Assembly: GCA_902773135.1 (NCBI GenBank)
Contig: CACYDP010000002.1
Coordinates: forward strand, 1 to 57,940
DNA: 57,940 bases
Direction of reading: 5' to 3'
Origin: an uncultured Ruminococcus sp.
GTDB lineage: Bacteria; Bacillota; Clostridia; Oscillospirales; Acutalibacteraceae
Shown: piece by piece, positions 1-3,088 of the stretch
How positions within the stretch are numbered: the first letter of the stretch is position 1
Layout of the letters: the number at the start of each line of letters is the position of its first letter
Position numbers and translations under genes: made by a program
Notes under the pieces: model-generated
Told to the model about the DNA's origin: nothing
The model's input: only the letters and a program-made list of their open reading frames with translations
Database searches by the model: none

Positions 1-35
1 CCACGGGGATTTCTGTTTTTTCTTCTGCCTGCCAT
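1..35 (-). CDS. Partial CDS leaving the window, basic N-terminus
   Basis: The complement of position 35 is an ATG preceded, 8 bases upstream, by a perfect GGAGG (complement of 44-48). The readable N-terminus is only eleven residues (MAGRRKNRNPR) before the window ends. It is highly basic, as in small phage DNA-binding proteins such as terminase small subunits or repressors, but no family can be assigned. It is divergent from the ImmA-like gene and lies inside the mobile element, so it is probably another element gene. Confidence 0.5.
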   Translation of the reverse strand, partial: MAGRRKNRNPR

Positions 36-91
36 TATTTTTTCCTCCATATCGTTGTTTCCTTTCGTTTAATATATCACACCCTATCAGA

Positions 92-145
92 AAAATAAAG
101 TGTATAAGTCAGTTCTCTTCTTTCTGTACTTACACACTTTATTTT
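92..145. repeat. 18-bp inverted repeat at the 5' end of the ImmA-like gene
   Basis: Arms 92-109 and 128-145 are complementary in 17 of 18 positions around an 18-base spacer. The right arm contains TTACACACTTTA. It overlaps the first possible start codon of the following ORF, so that start lies in repeat DNA rather than in native coding sequence. It could be a hairpin, an operator, or the scar of an IS terminal repeat. Confidence 0.6.
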
Positions 146-693
146 ACACTATCGTTTTAGAGCAATTTGGCAATATTAAACTTCCTGTTCCTATCAAAAA
201 GATTGTAAAATTTTTAGGTTACAGATTAGTTCCTTATAGTAGTTTTGCTCAACGCCATAACTTAACTTATAAAGAAACAGTTGATTATTTTGGAACTGAT
301 GATGCTTGCTCCGATTATGAAAAAAATACAAATATTTATGTCGTTTATTTTAACGATATGGATAAAGCGAAAATTGAAAACCATCGCATTCGTTGGAATA
401 TAGCTCATGAGTTGGGACACATTGTTTTAGGTCATCATAAAACTGAAAATACACGACTTTTTAGAAATTCATTAAGTTTTAAAGAATATAATCGTTTGGA
501 AGAAGAAGCAGATGCGTTTGCATCTTATATTCTTGTCCCTTACATAGTTTTGAATTTTCAGAGAATTGGAATGCCTGAAGATATAGCAAGGATTTGTAAA
601 ATTTCTGCGACTGCTGCAAAATATAGATTTACAGACTTTTTCTTGTGGGCAATACGTATAAATGCTGCACCTTTGGGGTATGGAACAAGATAA
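100..693 (+). CDS. ImmA/IrrE-family metallo-endopeptidase, probably 5'-truncated
   Basis: The motif HELGHIVLGHH (about residues 103-113) is the HExxH zinc site of the ImmA/IrrE (DUF955) family, followed by the acidic EEEADAFAS segment typical of the third ligand region. Members cleave phage- or ICE-type repressors and switch on excision genes. The only upstream start is a GTG inside the inverted repeat at 92-145 with no good ribosome binding site. Family-like sequence appears to begin near residue 20 (LEQFGNIKLP), so the true N-terminus has probably been lost. The C-terminus runs out of frame into a hicB remnant. Base composition is more AT-rich than the recombinase gene, suggesting a mosaic origin. 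Family assignment is secure; functionality is doubtful. Confidence 0.75.
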   Translation: MYKSVLFFLYLHTLFYTIVLEQFGNIKLPVPIKKIVKFLGYRLVPYSSFAQRHNLTYKETVDYFGTDDACSDYEKNTNIYVVYFNDMDKAKIENHRIRWNIAHELGHIVLGHHKTENTRLFRNSLSFKEYNRLEEEADAFASYILVPYIVLNFQRIGMPEDIARICKISATAAKYRFTDFFLWAIRINAAPLGYGTR

Positions 694-922
694 TGAGCCT
701 ATCCCTGAGCCCTCTGCACTTCGTTCAGTTGAAATTAGCAAAGATGAAATACCTACAATAATTGAAGTATTTATGCCGCCTTTCAGAGAAAAACAAAATT
801 CTCGTTTTGTTAAAAAAACACTTTCTATTCCCTATTGGCTCAATCTGGAAGCTGAACACAAAGGTATCAACTTTTCCAAACTGCTTCAGAATGCAATAAA
901 GCAGGAACTTCATTTGGCATAA
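662..922 (+). pseudogene. HicB-family antitoxin, C-terminal remnant
   Basis: The product matches the C-terminal half of HicB antitoxins: a LHLWGMEQDNEPIPEPS segment like the end of the RNase-H-like domain, then a ribbon-helix-helix-type tail with KKTLSIPYWLN and NFSKLLQNAIKQEL. The roughly 60 N-terminal residues are missing. An in-frame stop lies at 659-661, there is no ribosome binding site, and no hicA toxin is nearby. The first 32 bases overlap the ImmA-like ORF in another frame, marking a recombination joint near 655-665. It is most likely a dead relic of a toxin-antitoxin pair. Confidence 0.7.
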
Positions 923-969
923 AAAACGCACACCCCCCGAAGTCTGACTGACGATCGGAGCAAAAAAAG

Positions 970-997
970 CCCCCGCCGGTACTGGAATACCGACAGG
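970..997 (+). terminator. Hairpin upstream of the recombinase gene
   Basis: A GC-rich stem (CCCGCCGGTA against TACCGACAGGG, small bulges, 6-base loop) lies between the hicB remnant and the recombinase. It has no clear U-tract on the plus strand but has U residues on the minus-strand side (A-run at 962-968). It may insulate the recombinase or terminate minus-strand transcription. Confidence 0.4.
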
Positions 998-1027
998 GAA
1001 CATTACTATATGAAAGGAACCGATTAT

Positions 1028-2458
1028 ATGAAAATTGCCGCTGCCTATATACGTGTATCGACAGATGATCAGATTGAATACTCTCCCGCCTCCCAACTCG
1101 AAAAAATCAGGGAATATGCAAAGCGTAATGATTACATACTGCCTGAGGAATATATCTACGTGGACGAGGGTATTTCCGGAAGGCACACTGCTAAACGTGC
1201 GGCATTCAATCAAATGATCGGTACAGCCAAAACTAAACCAAAGCCTTTTGATGCGATTCTTCTCTGGAAATTCAGCCGTTTCGCACGAAACCGTGAGGAC
1301 AGTATTGTTTATAAGTCTATGCTCCGCAAGCAGTGCGGTATTGATGTTATTTCAATCTCCGAAAATCTCGGCGATGACAAAATGTCAGTGCTGATTGAGG
1401 CATTGATAGAAGCAATGGACGAATATTACAGCATTAATCTGTCGGAAGAAGTCAAGCGTGGTATGAACGAAAAAGTCAGCAGAGGTGAAGCTGTCACTAT
1501 TCCCTCTTTCGGATATGACATCAAGGACGGCACATATATTCCTGATCCTGAAACTGCTCCAGCCGTCCAAAAAATATATGCCGACTACCTGAACGGTAAA
1601 GGTATACGCACCATAGCAGTTGAAATGAATGAATGCGGCTACCGTACCCGAAGGGGGAACCGATTTGAAAACCGTACTGTCAAATATATACTGACTAACC
1701 CTGTCTACATCGGCAAAATTCGTTGGACCCCGTCAGGAAGAGCCAATCACCGTACAGAAGACAATCCGGACACACTCATTATCAACGGCACCCACGAGCC
1801 TATCATTGATCAGGAAATATGGGATAAGGTCCAAAAGAAATTGCAGGCTGCACCTAAAACGAAGTACATGCGACAAGAGCCTGCCAAAACACCGTTTATG
1901 CTTCAGGGACTTGTACGCTGCAGTGCCTGTGGAGCTACACTGTGCCAGGCAGTTAATCATACTTCCCTTCAATGTTATGCTTATGCACACGGAAAATGCA
2001 AAACCTCACACAGCATCAGCCTTAAAAAAATCAATTCTGCTGTTTTTGATGCTTTGGAAAAATCCAGCTTGACAGGAATTTTCAATCTGGAAATGATACC
2101 GAAAACGGACACAAAATCTATTGAAAATATTCCGGCACAGATTGAAAGAGAAAAGAAAAAAATAGAACGTGTAAAGGACGCTTATGAAAACGGGGCCTAT
2201 ACGCTTGATGAATTCAAGCAAAGCCGTCAGCAGATACTGAACCGGATTGCAGAGCTTGAAATGAAAATGTCACAATTGGATATTCCCGATGAGCAAAAAG
2301 AACGATTGATCATACGTAAAAAAATACACGAGCTCCTCCCTACTCTCAAATCACCCGCTGTACCCGAAGCAGTAAAAAATTCGCTCCTGAAATCCATTAT
2401 CAAAAGGATCGTATTTTATCGGAGCAACGGCGGTATAGAGATTTTTTTCTATGCCTGA
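1028..2458 (+). CDS. Large serine recombinase (site-specific integrase)
   Basis: The resolvase domain opens with AAAYIRVSTDDQ, whose serine (residue 11 from the chosen start) is the catalytic nucleophile. The arginine-rich segment LLWKFSRFARNREDS follows. A recombinase domain (about residues 150-250) comes next, then a zinc ribbon (CSACG, later CYAYAHGKC), a charged coiled coil (about 360-430) and a C-terminal tail. At about 476 aa it fits large serine integrases of phages and integrative elements. The ATG at 1028 is preferred over that at 1010 because AAAGGA sits 10 bases upstream and family members start MK-AAxYxRVS. Its stop lies about 10-25 bases from the point where cotJC is interrupted, the usual arrangement of an integrase next to its attachment site. 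It probably integrates and excises this element. Confidence 0.92.
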   Translation: MKIAAAYIRVSTDDQIEYSPASQLEKIREYAKRNDYILPEEYIYVDEGISGRHTAKRAAFNQMIGTAKTKPKPFDAILLWKFSRFARNREDSIVYKSMLRKQCGIDVISISENLGDDKMSVLIEALIEAMDEYYSINLSEEVKRGMNEKVSRGEAVTIPSFGYDIKDGTYIPDPETAPAVQKIYADYLNGKGIRTIAVEMNECGYRTRRGNRFENRTVKYILTNPVYIGKIRWTPSGRANHRTEDNPDTLIINGTHEPIIDQEIWDKVQKKLQAAPKTKYMRQEPAKTPFMLQGLVRCSACGATLCQAVNHTSLQCYAYAHGKCKTSHSISLKKINSAVFDALEKSSLTGIFNLEMIPKTDTKSIENIPAQIEREKKKIERVKDAYENGAYTLDEFKQSRQQILNRIAELEMKMSQLDIPDEQKERLIIRKKIHELLPTLKSPAVPEAVKNSLLKSIIKRIVFYRSNGGIEIFFYA

Positions 2459-2575
2459 AATGTATATCTTTTTGCAATCAGGACCGCCGTATTGTGTGAT
2501 AATAATTTTAGCAAGAGCAGGATTTGTGCATTTTATATTAACAGGATATTGAAGTTTTTTCTCATACGCCCACAT
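2351..2575 (-). pseudogene. cotJC: cotJC 5' fragment interrupted by the mobile element
   Basis: From the ATG at 2575 the first 33 residues (MWAYEKKLQYPVNIK... to ITQYGGPD) match the conserved N-terminus of CotJC, a manganese-catalase-like spore coat protein of about 190 aa. Homology stops after GGPD near 2477, and the frame continues through foreign element sequence to a stop at 2351. The gene sits directly downstream of cotJB, as in the usual cotJABC operon. The remaining roughly 155 codons should lie beyond the left edge of the window, at the other end of the element. Confidence 0.85.
2459..2485. other. Probable attachment-site junction in cotJC
   Basis: This is the boundary between recombinase-side DNA (stop codon 2456-2458) and genuine cotJC sequence (the codons for GGPD end at 2477). 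The crossover of a large serine integrase uses only a 2-3 bp core, so the exact base cannot be fixed without the other half-site. The most likely position is within 2470-2485. Confidence 0.6.
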
Positions 2576-2579
2576 AGAA

Positions 2580-2831
2580 TCATCCCTCCTGTACATCCCA
2601 GGGCCACGGATCCGAAATCCACGACCATCTGTTGCCGCCGTCATCTCTTACCGTCAGCGGACCGAATTTTTCTTCATATTGACTGCGAAGTTCGCTGCTT
2701 TTATTCTCGTATTCACGCAAGGCTTTTTCGGCTTTTTTATCATCGGGATGCGTATCAAGATATATATGGAGATCGGTCAAAGCAAAATCGTATGCCGATA
2801 AATTTCTCATCAGTCGTTCACGTTCAGTCAT
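2580..2831 (-). CDS. cotJB: Spore coat protein CotJB
   Basis: At 83 aa it has the family's usual length. It shows the CotJB signature: an N-terminal helix ending in YDFALTDLHIYLDTHP, a central charged helix and a C-terminal W-x-W-x-S-x-P-W-P-W motif. CotJB is a structural component of the inner spore coat made in the mother cell. Its ATG overlaps the end of cotJA by 8 bases, so the two are translationally coupled. The interrupted cotJC starts 4 bases after its stop. The product should be unaffected by the insertion. Confidence 0.9.
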   Translation of the reverse strand: MTERERLMRNLSAYDFALTDLHIYLDTHPDDKKAEKALREYENKSSELRSQYEEKFGPLTVRDDGGNRWSWISDPWPWDVQEG

Positions 2832-3030
2832 TCTTCATTCCTCCCGATTGACATTCAGGTGAAAACGGTTTATTTAATTCCGGAAAGATCGTTCCTGTTT
2901 GTATTCCCTGTTCGGGAGAATACAGTTTTCGTGCATTCTGATAAGGCACATACGCCATCGCAATGACTGTATCTTTCGGAAGAGGTCTGATGAAAAATTC
3001 CGAATTTTGAAGTTCTCTTATCACGTCCAT
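2824..3030 (-). CDS. cotJA: Spore coat-associated protein CotJA
   Basis: The sequence contains the CotJA core: AMAYVPYQNARKLYSPEQG, then GTIFPELNKPF. The ATG at 3030 (MDVIRELQ) is chosen because GGAGAT lies 5 bases upstream; the longer frame to 3057 has no such site. The 68-aa size matches the family. CotJA is the first gene of the cotJ operon, expressed in the mother cell during sporulation. It establishes that the organism, or its recent ancestor, forms endospores. Confidence 0.88.
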   Translation of the reverse strand: MDVIRELQNSEFFIRPLPKDTVIAMAYVPYQNARKLYSPEQGIQTGTIFPELNKPFSPECQSGGMKND

Positions 3031-3061
3031 AAAAAATCTCCTTTCTTCTGCTTTCATTCAC

Positions 3062-3088
3062 TATAATATGTAAAGTTTTTGATACTGT
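3062..3088 (-). promoter_or_regulatory. Sporulation-type promoter candidate for cotJ
   Basis: On the minus strand CATATTATA (complement of 3062-3070) fits the sigma-K -10 pattern CATAnnnTA, and an AC lies exactly 16 bases upstream (complement of 3087-3088). There is no sigma-A -35 box. The pattern is short, and sigma-E control is equally possible by analogy with other cotJ operons. Confidence 0.4.

Follow-up and report, generated by a model that had tools for sequence, protein, structure and literature searches.

The spore-coat gene cotJC is split at recurring sites by serine-recombinase elements in an uncultured Ruminococcus and its relatives: candidate skin-like intervening elements

Sporulation genes published as carrying intervening elements are sigK, spsM, spoVFB, gerE and yabG (PMC5595907, PMC10747680 and PMC5025042). 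In the skin element of Clostridioides difficile, the large serine recombinase (LSR) is expressed constitutively, whereas synthesis of the directionality factor is restricted to the mother cell (PMC5025042). In this work, we examined the cotJ locus of an uncultured Ruminococcus sp. (assembly GCA_902773135.1, 140 contigs), which lies near the start of contig CACYDP010000002.1 (here C2); the window is this contig from its first base, 57,940 bases in all. The third gene of the cotJ operon, cotJC, encodes a manganese-catalase-like spore-coat protein. We found that cotJC of this genome is in at least four pieces, split by three elements with different LSRs. With a probability that we put at about 0.62, these are skin-like intervening elements that are excised by their own recombinases, rebuilding cotJC, probably in the mother cell.

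On the minus strand of the window, cotJA (2824..3057; Pfam PF11007 CotJA, 5.3e-17) and cotJB (2580..2831; PF12652 CotJB, 4.3e-28) are intact, as a sequence-only reading of this DNA had held. The 5' piece of cotJC follows on the same strand at 2477..2575 (codons 1-33, MWAYEKKLQYPVNIKCTNPALAKIIITQYGGPD; PF05067 positions 1-33, E 5.4e-5; CotJC hidden Markov model (HMM), E 1.7e-14), and its family match ends after codon 33, exactly where that reading had seen an LSR-bearing element begin. The recombinase, LSR1 (1010..2458, plus strand), is a 482-aa member of what we call the site-A family, with Pfam matches to Resolvase, Recombinase and Zn_ribbon_recom (the zinc ribbon at 23.6 bits, under the curated cut-off of 25.3 bits) and a match to PHROG 95 integrase; it is 45-94% identical to 14 other site-A recombinases. 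Its stop codon (2456-2458) falls 18 bases short of the end of the core described below, close to the roughly 20 bases first estimated. A second piece of cotJC, codons 33-65, was found with PF05067 on another contig of the same genome, C51 (L003). Alignment of the two half-sites, the comparison through which the core was expected to emerge, gave a 19-bp core, ACAATACGGCGGTCCTGAT (cotJC-strand letters; 2477..2495), which is the longest stretch common to the C2 and C51 joints. When the flanks are joined over this core they read ...AKIIITQYGGPDGELGASLRYLSQRYSVPY in frame; site A of this genome therefore combines a short direct-repeat core with in-frame gene parts, the features by which sporulation gene-intervening elements such as skin, SP-beta, vfbin, gin and yin are recognized. 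Flanking the core, the element-side arm (2461..2476) and an arm on C51 make up the two halves of an inverted repeat, TATATCTTTTT ... AAAAAGATATA. Such arms are expected of the attP of a serine integrase, and similar ones were read behind the recombinase in several virus contigs that lack flanking cotJC.

The sequence-only reading had further supposed that the remaining cotJC would lie in frame at the other half-site. This held for codons 33-65, but the rest is not one block. The C51 piece breaks off at codon ~65 (TDIGTEE), with the gene of a second recombinase, LSR2, about 25 bases away. When the protein search of the genome was widened, it matched codons 166-198 on a third contig, C115, where by our reading cotJC homology begins at about codon 168-172, roughly 60 bases from the stop codon of LSR3. 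Thus a recombinase gene of its own ends near each of the three joints. All three proteins match PF00239, PF07508 and PF13408, LSR1 and LSR2 are 23% identical, and the three fall into separate 40%-identity clusters. Profile and protein searches revealed no intact cotJC elsewhere in this assembly.

That the joints are spread over three contigs of a 140-contig assembly might suggest an assembly or binning artefact. Several observations make this extremely improbable: the contigs extend past the joints, and breaks at these sites recur in 40 further assemblies of the genus and in records of named strains, L232 and L238 among them. Moreover, a single 127,073-base contig of Clostridium sp. D33t1_170424_F3 carries three cotJC pieces in their proper order. 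At joint A, then, the following fragment is present and in frame, and the joint is not an assembly join, since the same joint occurs in other assemblies and in named-strain records. A control gene illustrates what fragmentation does look like. The ATPase domain (237 positions) of the sporulation gene spoIVA, taken also as a sign that the hosts may form spores, could be located in 59 of the 64 genus genomes, among them 26 of 26 of good quality (completeness of 90% or more, contamination of 5% or less), and was unbroken in 54. Among the other five, spoIVA of our genome and of G201 is split at contig edges with identical overlaps of 85 and 82 bases, respectively, in contrast to cotJC, and a possible insertion in our own spoIVA was dismissed on these grounds; in G196 and G156 the pieces lie at contig edges, and in G153 the first 26 positions are missing.

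The breaks in cotJC recur across the genus. We searched the 64 genomes for the gene, fetched the pieces and mapped them with the CotJC HMM. Nine genomes carry an intact cotJC, 41 have at least one joint within a contig (26 at one site, 13 at two and 2 at three), six have ends at contig edges only and eight gave no match, so that the gene is interrupted in 41 to 47 of the 56 genomes that have it. The 85 pieces have 97 non-natural ends, of which 17 are at contig edges, 79 fall within four site windows and one lies elsewhere, in G196. Hence 79 of 80 within-contig breaks are in the windows, far beyond scatter, even though these take in about 77 of the 202 codons where 5' ends are concerned and about 56 where 3' ends are (some 28-38% of the gene), and a stop codon inside a window could escape notice. 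The sites are A (QYGGP/DGE; 18 genomes), B (DIGTEE/LAHLE; 14), C (EDLAA/EQKAR; 8) and D (QRFGEA/LR; 18). The single outlying end, in G196 (L150), is an in-frame tandem duplication of 14 cotJC codons directly beside the site-A joint. Stop codons that appeared inside some protein-search matches were set aside, as open reading frames (ORFs) and the CotJC HMM end those pieces at joints.

Each recombinase family found keeps to a single site. Of 43 LSRs beside joints, 41 were clustered at 40% identity, with the sites beside short pieces assigned by eye, giving components of 14, 11, 8, 4, 3 and 1 sequences, each confined to one site: 14 at A, 11 at B (plus the 4 and the 1, from outside the genus), 3 at C and 8 at D. 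In named genomes, a set that overlaps the genus survey, the site-A LSRs have 187 relatives; among the best 80 of them, 71 have their stop codon within 120 bases of a cotJC piece and 2 are at a contig edge. In virus contigs, 21 of the best 80 of 163 site-A relatives adjoin cotJC and 14 are at a contig edge; for LSR2 relatives the corresponding numbers are 15 and 17 of 67, with 35 neither, and LSR3 had no relatives in virus contigs. Cores were used only where the joined reading restores the motif (our genome, Faecalispora jeddahensis, D33t1 site A, RUG10802, G209 and DHOL site B); the readings for G119, G189, G007 site B, D33t1 site B and DUNN site B were left out. At site-A loci the LSR may adjoin the 5' piece, where it runs antisense to cotJC, or the 3' piece, where it runs in the same direction, and in virus contigs the core is found in either orientation behind the LSR. 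An endolysin gene was considered as a regular neighbour of attP in virus contigs and dismissed, because none of 47 loci had a CW_7-like ORF within 3 kb.

The elements themselves are diverse. One end of element 1 occupies 1..2476 of the window; C2 begins at position 1, so the element runs past the contig edge; the stretch between its two ends is not assembled as a single piece, and its opposite end, on C51, carries the C-terminus of a CW_7 endolysin (Pfam and PHROG scans), for which reason element 1 is probably a prophage. Besides LSR1, the part in the window holds two plus-strand ORFs, an IrrE-like peptidase (Peptidase_M78; 100..693; PF06114, 5.2e-11) and a small ORF from the ORF list with no Pfam match (662..922). 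Element 2 encodes a Fic-domain protein with a winged-helix domain (L003 2135-3388). The 38-kb site-A element of G189 has tape measure, tail and holin genes among ten ORFs scanned at its two ends and is therefore a prophage. Some other elements are small islands without visible phage genes. The element of G119 is only 2.3 kb, with two sizeable genes, for an Amidase_6 protein and an LSR, each oriented like the cotJ operon; that of F. jeddahensis JCD is about 4.5 kb with genes for a peroxiredoxin, TspO and a hydrolase; and D33t1_170424_F3 has an element of about 3.2 kb with a superoxide dismutase, followed by a site-B element of about 60 kb. Superoxide dismutase (L238 3444-4229) and peroxiredoxin (L232 3099-3845) are thus carried as small-element cargo inside a catalase-like gene. 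On one contig of G007 (L036 3607-15717), a 14.4-kb site-B element holds a surface-polysaccharide gene cluster, named by reading, that includes a UDP-GlcNAc 2-epimerase (Pfam).

The argument that carries our reading is one of constraint. We compared the proportion of nonsynonymous differences (pn), and its ratio to the synonymous proportion (ps), between split and intact genes. Median pn was 0.127 for 457 split-split pairs versus 0.123 for 36 intact-intact pairs, and median pn/ps was 0.153 versus 0.155. The difference in mean pn, 0.0053, is small against the standard deviation of 0.0147 obtained by shuffling labels among 42 of the 56 genomes, those in which 60 or more codons were usable (the other 14 were dropped), and 36% of shuffles gave one equally large. 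For the closest split pair, G209 and G210, the ratio of nonsynonymous to synonymous rates (dN/dS) is 0.026. Nearest neighbours differ at a median of 0.65 of synonymous sites; these sites are near saturation, so the comparison measures constraint and yields no date. Since the elements turn over, a lineage seems to carry an interrupted gene for most of its time, yet constraint is not relaxed, which argues that the gene works in interrupted cells. Because the pieces stay under constraint like intact copies, we infer that cotJC is reconstituted.

We propose that each LSR would first insert its element into a conserved cotJC motif through attP x attB recombination, and that later attL x attR recombination by the LSR would excise the element and leave a complete cotJC. 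By analogy with C. difficile skin and SP-beta, excision would most likely be limited to the sporulating mother cell, so that the germ line would retain the elements while the spore still received CotJC. Three elements would call for three excisions to rebuild one gene. A bolder version, to which we give somewhat less than even odds, holds that cotJC is a gene in several DNA pieces, like DNA introns, with at least three excisions per mother cell, and that several LSR families came to target it since it is needed only in a doomed cell.

These data also have to be weighed against simple inactivation, in which cotJC is dispensable, its conserved motifs make good attB sites, and phages and islands disrupt it so that CotJC is lost. 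The elements are indeed mobile and turn over, and several virus contigs show a site-A recombinase followed by an attP-like palindrome with no cotJC. Two of the 26 good-quality genus genomes lack any cotJC match (24 have one), for which reason the gene can perhaps be lost in the genus. For C. difficile, the authors of PMC11222575 suggested that the CotJC-like gene beside phi027 is functionally redundant. Against this, the gene is interrupted in 41 to 47 of 56 genomes, yet 79 of 80 within-contig breaks are at the four sites and not at scattered stops. The pn of the pieces also equals that of intact genes, and with nearest neighbours so far apart at synonymous sites, nearly all insertions would need to be very recent. 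We therefore regard tolerated disruption as unlikely.

Excision need not be developmental. Active prophages and islands could leave some of the cells at any moment, with no control specific to sporulation, and the gene would then work in the excised minority. The metagenome-assembled genome G193 contains both an empty site A (L093 1-195) and a filled one (L094 2506-2634), with codons 33-65 differing by a single base, and thus both states are present in the sample; the existence of virus contigs without flanking cotJC points the same way. The two G193 contigs may, however, belong to two strains, so that the double state reflects either excision or strain mixture, and we consider purely stochastic excision quite unlikely.

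Regulated excision of the cotJC elements is nevertheless confronted by several observations, to which the two good-quality genomes without a cotJC match must be added. A -10-like element, CATATTATA, precedes cotJA in the window (3062..3070, minus strand) and recurs in the genus: 12 of 26 cotJA upstream regions hold a match within one mismatch, versus 1.8 expected from mononucleotide shuffles, and it may be a mother-cell sigma site. This motif is not enriched before the LSRs (35 of 41 usable), where it was found in 2 of 14 at site A, 3 of 15 at site B and 0 of 6 at sites C and D together, versus 0.86, 1.06 and 0.41 expected. A one-mismatch site does lie 54 bases ahead of the LSR2 start in our genome, within chance, and a mother-cell promoter before the LSRs is thus unsupported by motif counts. 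By analogy, this lack of enrichment would fit the C. difficile skin, although it provides no positive evidence here. No directionality factor turned up, with no systematic search for one made. Codons 66-167 are absent from our assembly by protein search and by a degenerate DNA pattern, so that one side only is known of joint B and of joint D. In G203 (L089 44-10182), a single contig carries the 5' and 3' pieces facing opposite ways and separated by host-like genes, an arrangement from which simple excision would not rebuild the gene. Seven of the best 80 site-A relatives in named genomes are not beside cotJC (in one, Clostridium methylpentosum DSM 5476, a cotJC piece lies 0.9 kb from the LSR), nor are 45 of the best 80 in virus contigs. 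Several such virus contigs have an attP-like palindrome directly behind the LSR, a number with a GGNGGNCC-like core, and some cores were read as unlike the cotJC motif. Given the relatives away from cotJC and the differing cores, it is possible that the site-A family has other targets. Finally, LSR and host identity correlate poorly (r of 0.25, 0.56 and -0.23 in families A, B and D; 65, 36 and 7 pairs), which leaves old vertical domestication of the elements unsupported. Insertions would then be gained and lost repeatedly, and any of them may be recent, in which case the constraint could partly date from before insertion. Altogether, the skin-like strategy that the sequence-only reading had envisaged gains indirect support from the clustering of the breaks and from pieces that evolve like intact genes, and is weakened by the motif counts before the recombinases and by the genomes without a match.

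Interrupted cotJC is also seen beyond the genus. In the family, cotJC is matched in 116 of 150 genomes, and by eye at least about 50 of these matches are partial, ending near codons 30, 62 or 150; 15 partial cases were read in sequence. In the phylum (149 genomes, requested at 90% completeness or more), 98 have a match, and the match listing shows complementary pieces in five genomes besides our own (G276, G274, G298, G353 and G340), of which the sequence was fetched for G276, G274 and part of G353; G218 is a possible further split or a contig break. In G098 (L040), G145 (L042), and G303 and G332 (L327-L329), an intact cotJC is accompanied by extra partial copies downstream. Perhaps these mark elements that supply a 3' half themselves, so that their integration leaves the gene whole.

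The locus offers named strains and many recombinases with known attachment sites for experiments. It makes testable the idea that mobile elements are safely sheltered in a gene whose use is confined to the doomed mother cell, as well as the coordination of several excisions in one gene. No report of an interrupted cotJC was found in the open literature searched, mostly through titles and the opening lines of abstracts, with subscription literature largely outside its scope.

Several described systems resemble this one. The skin element in sigK of B. subtilis and C. difficile is likewise an LSR element in a mother-cell sporulation gene that is rebuilt by excision (PMC5025042); it differs in that the target here is cotJC, that up to three elements occupy one gene and that the LSR family differs by site, and in that excision from cotJC is a proposal. 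SP-beta in spsM of B. subtilis is likewise a prophage in a spore-envelope gene that is excised during sporulation (PMC4191935, PMC5025042), but with one element at one site. The gin element in gerE of B. cereus ATCC10987 is, like some of the cotJC islands, a non-phage intervening element with serine recombinases (PMC5595907); whereas gin has three recombinases in one element at one site, cotJC has three elements at three sites of one gene. A prophage-like element that leaves the chromosome, yin, interrupts the sporulation gene yabG in C. botulinum V73 (PMC10747680); yin is described as unique to one strain, whereas interruption of cotJC affects most of the genus genomes in which the gene occurs. 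In C. difficile R20291, a CotJC-like gene, ORF 1465, lies just downstream of attR of phi027, adjacent to the prophage and not split, unlike cotJC here (PMC11222575). The intervening elements described in these sources follow a pattern of one element in one gene, whereas cotJC presents four recurring integration sites and at least six single-site recombinase clusters, is interrupted in most of the genus genomes with the gene, and can be left in at least four pieces.

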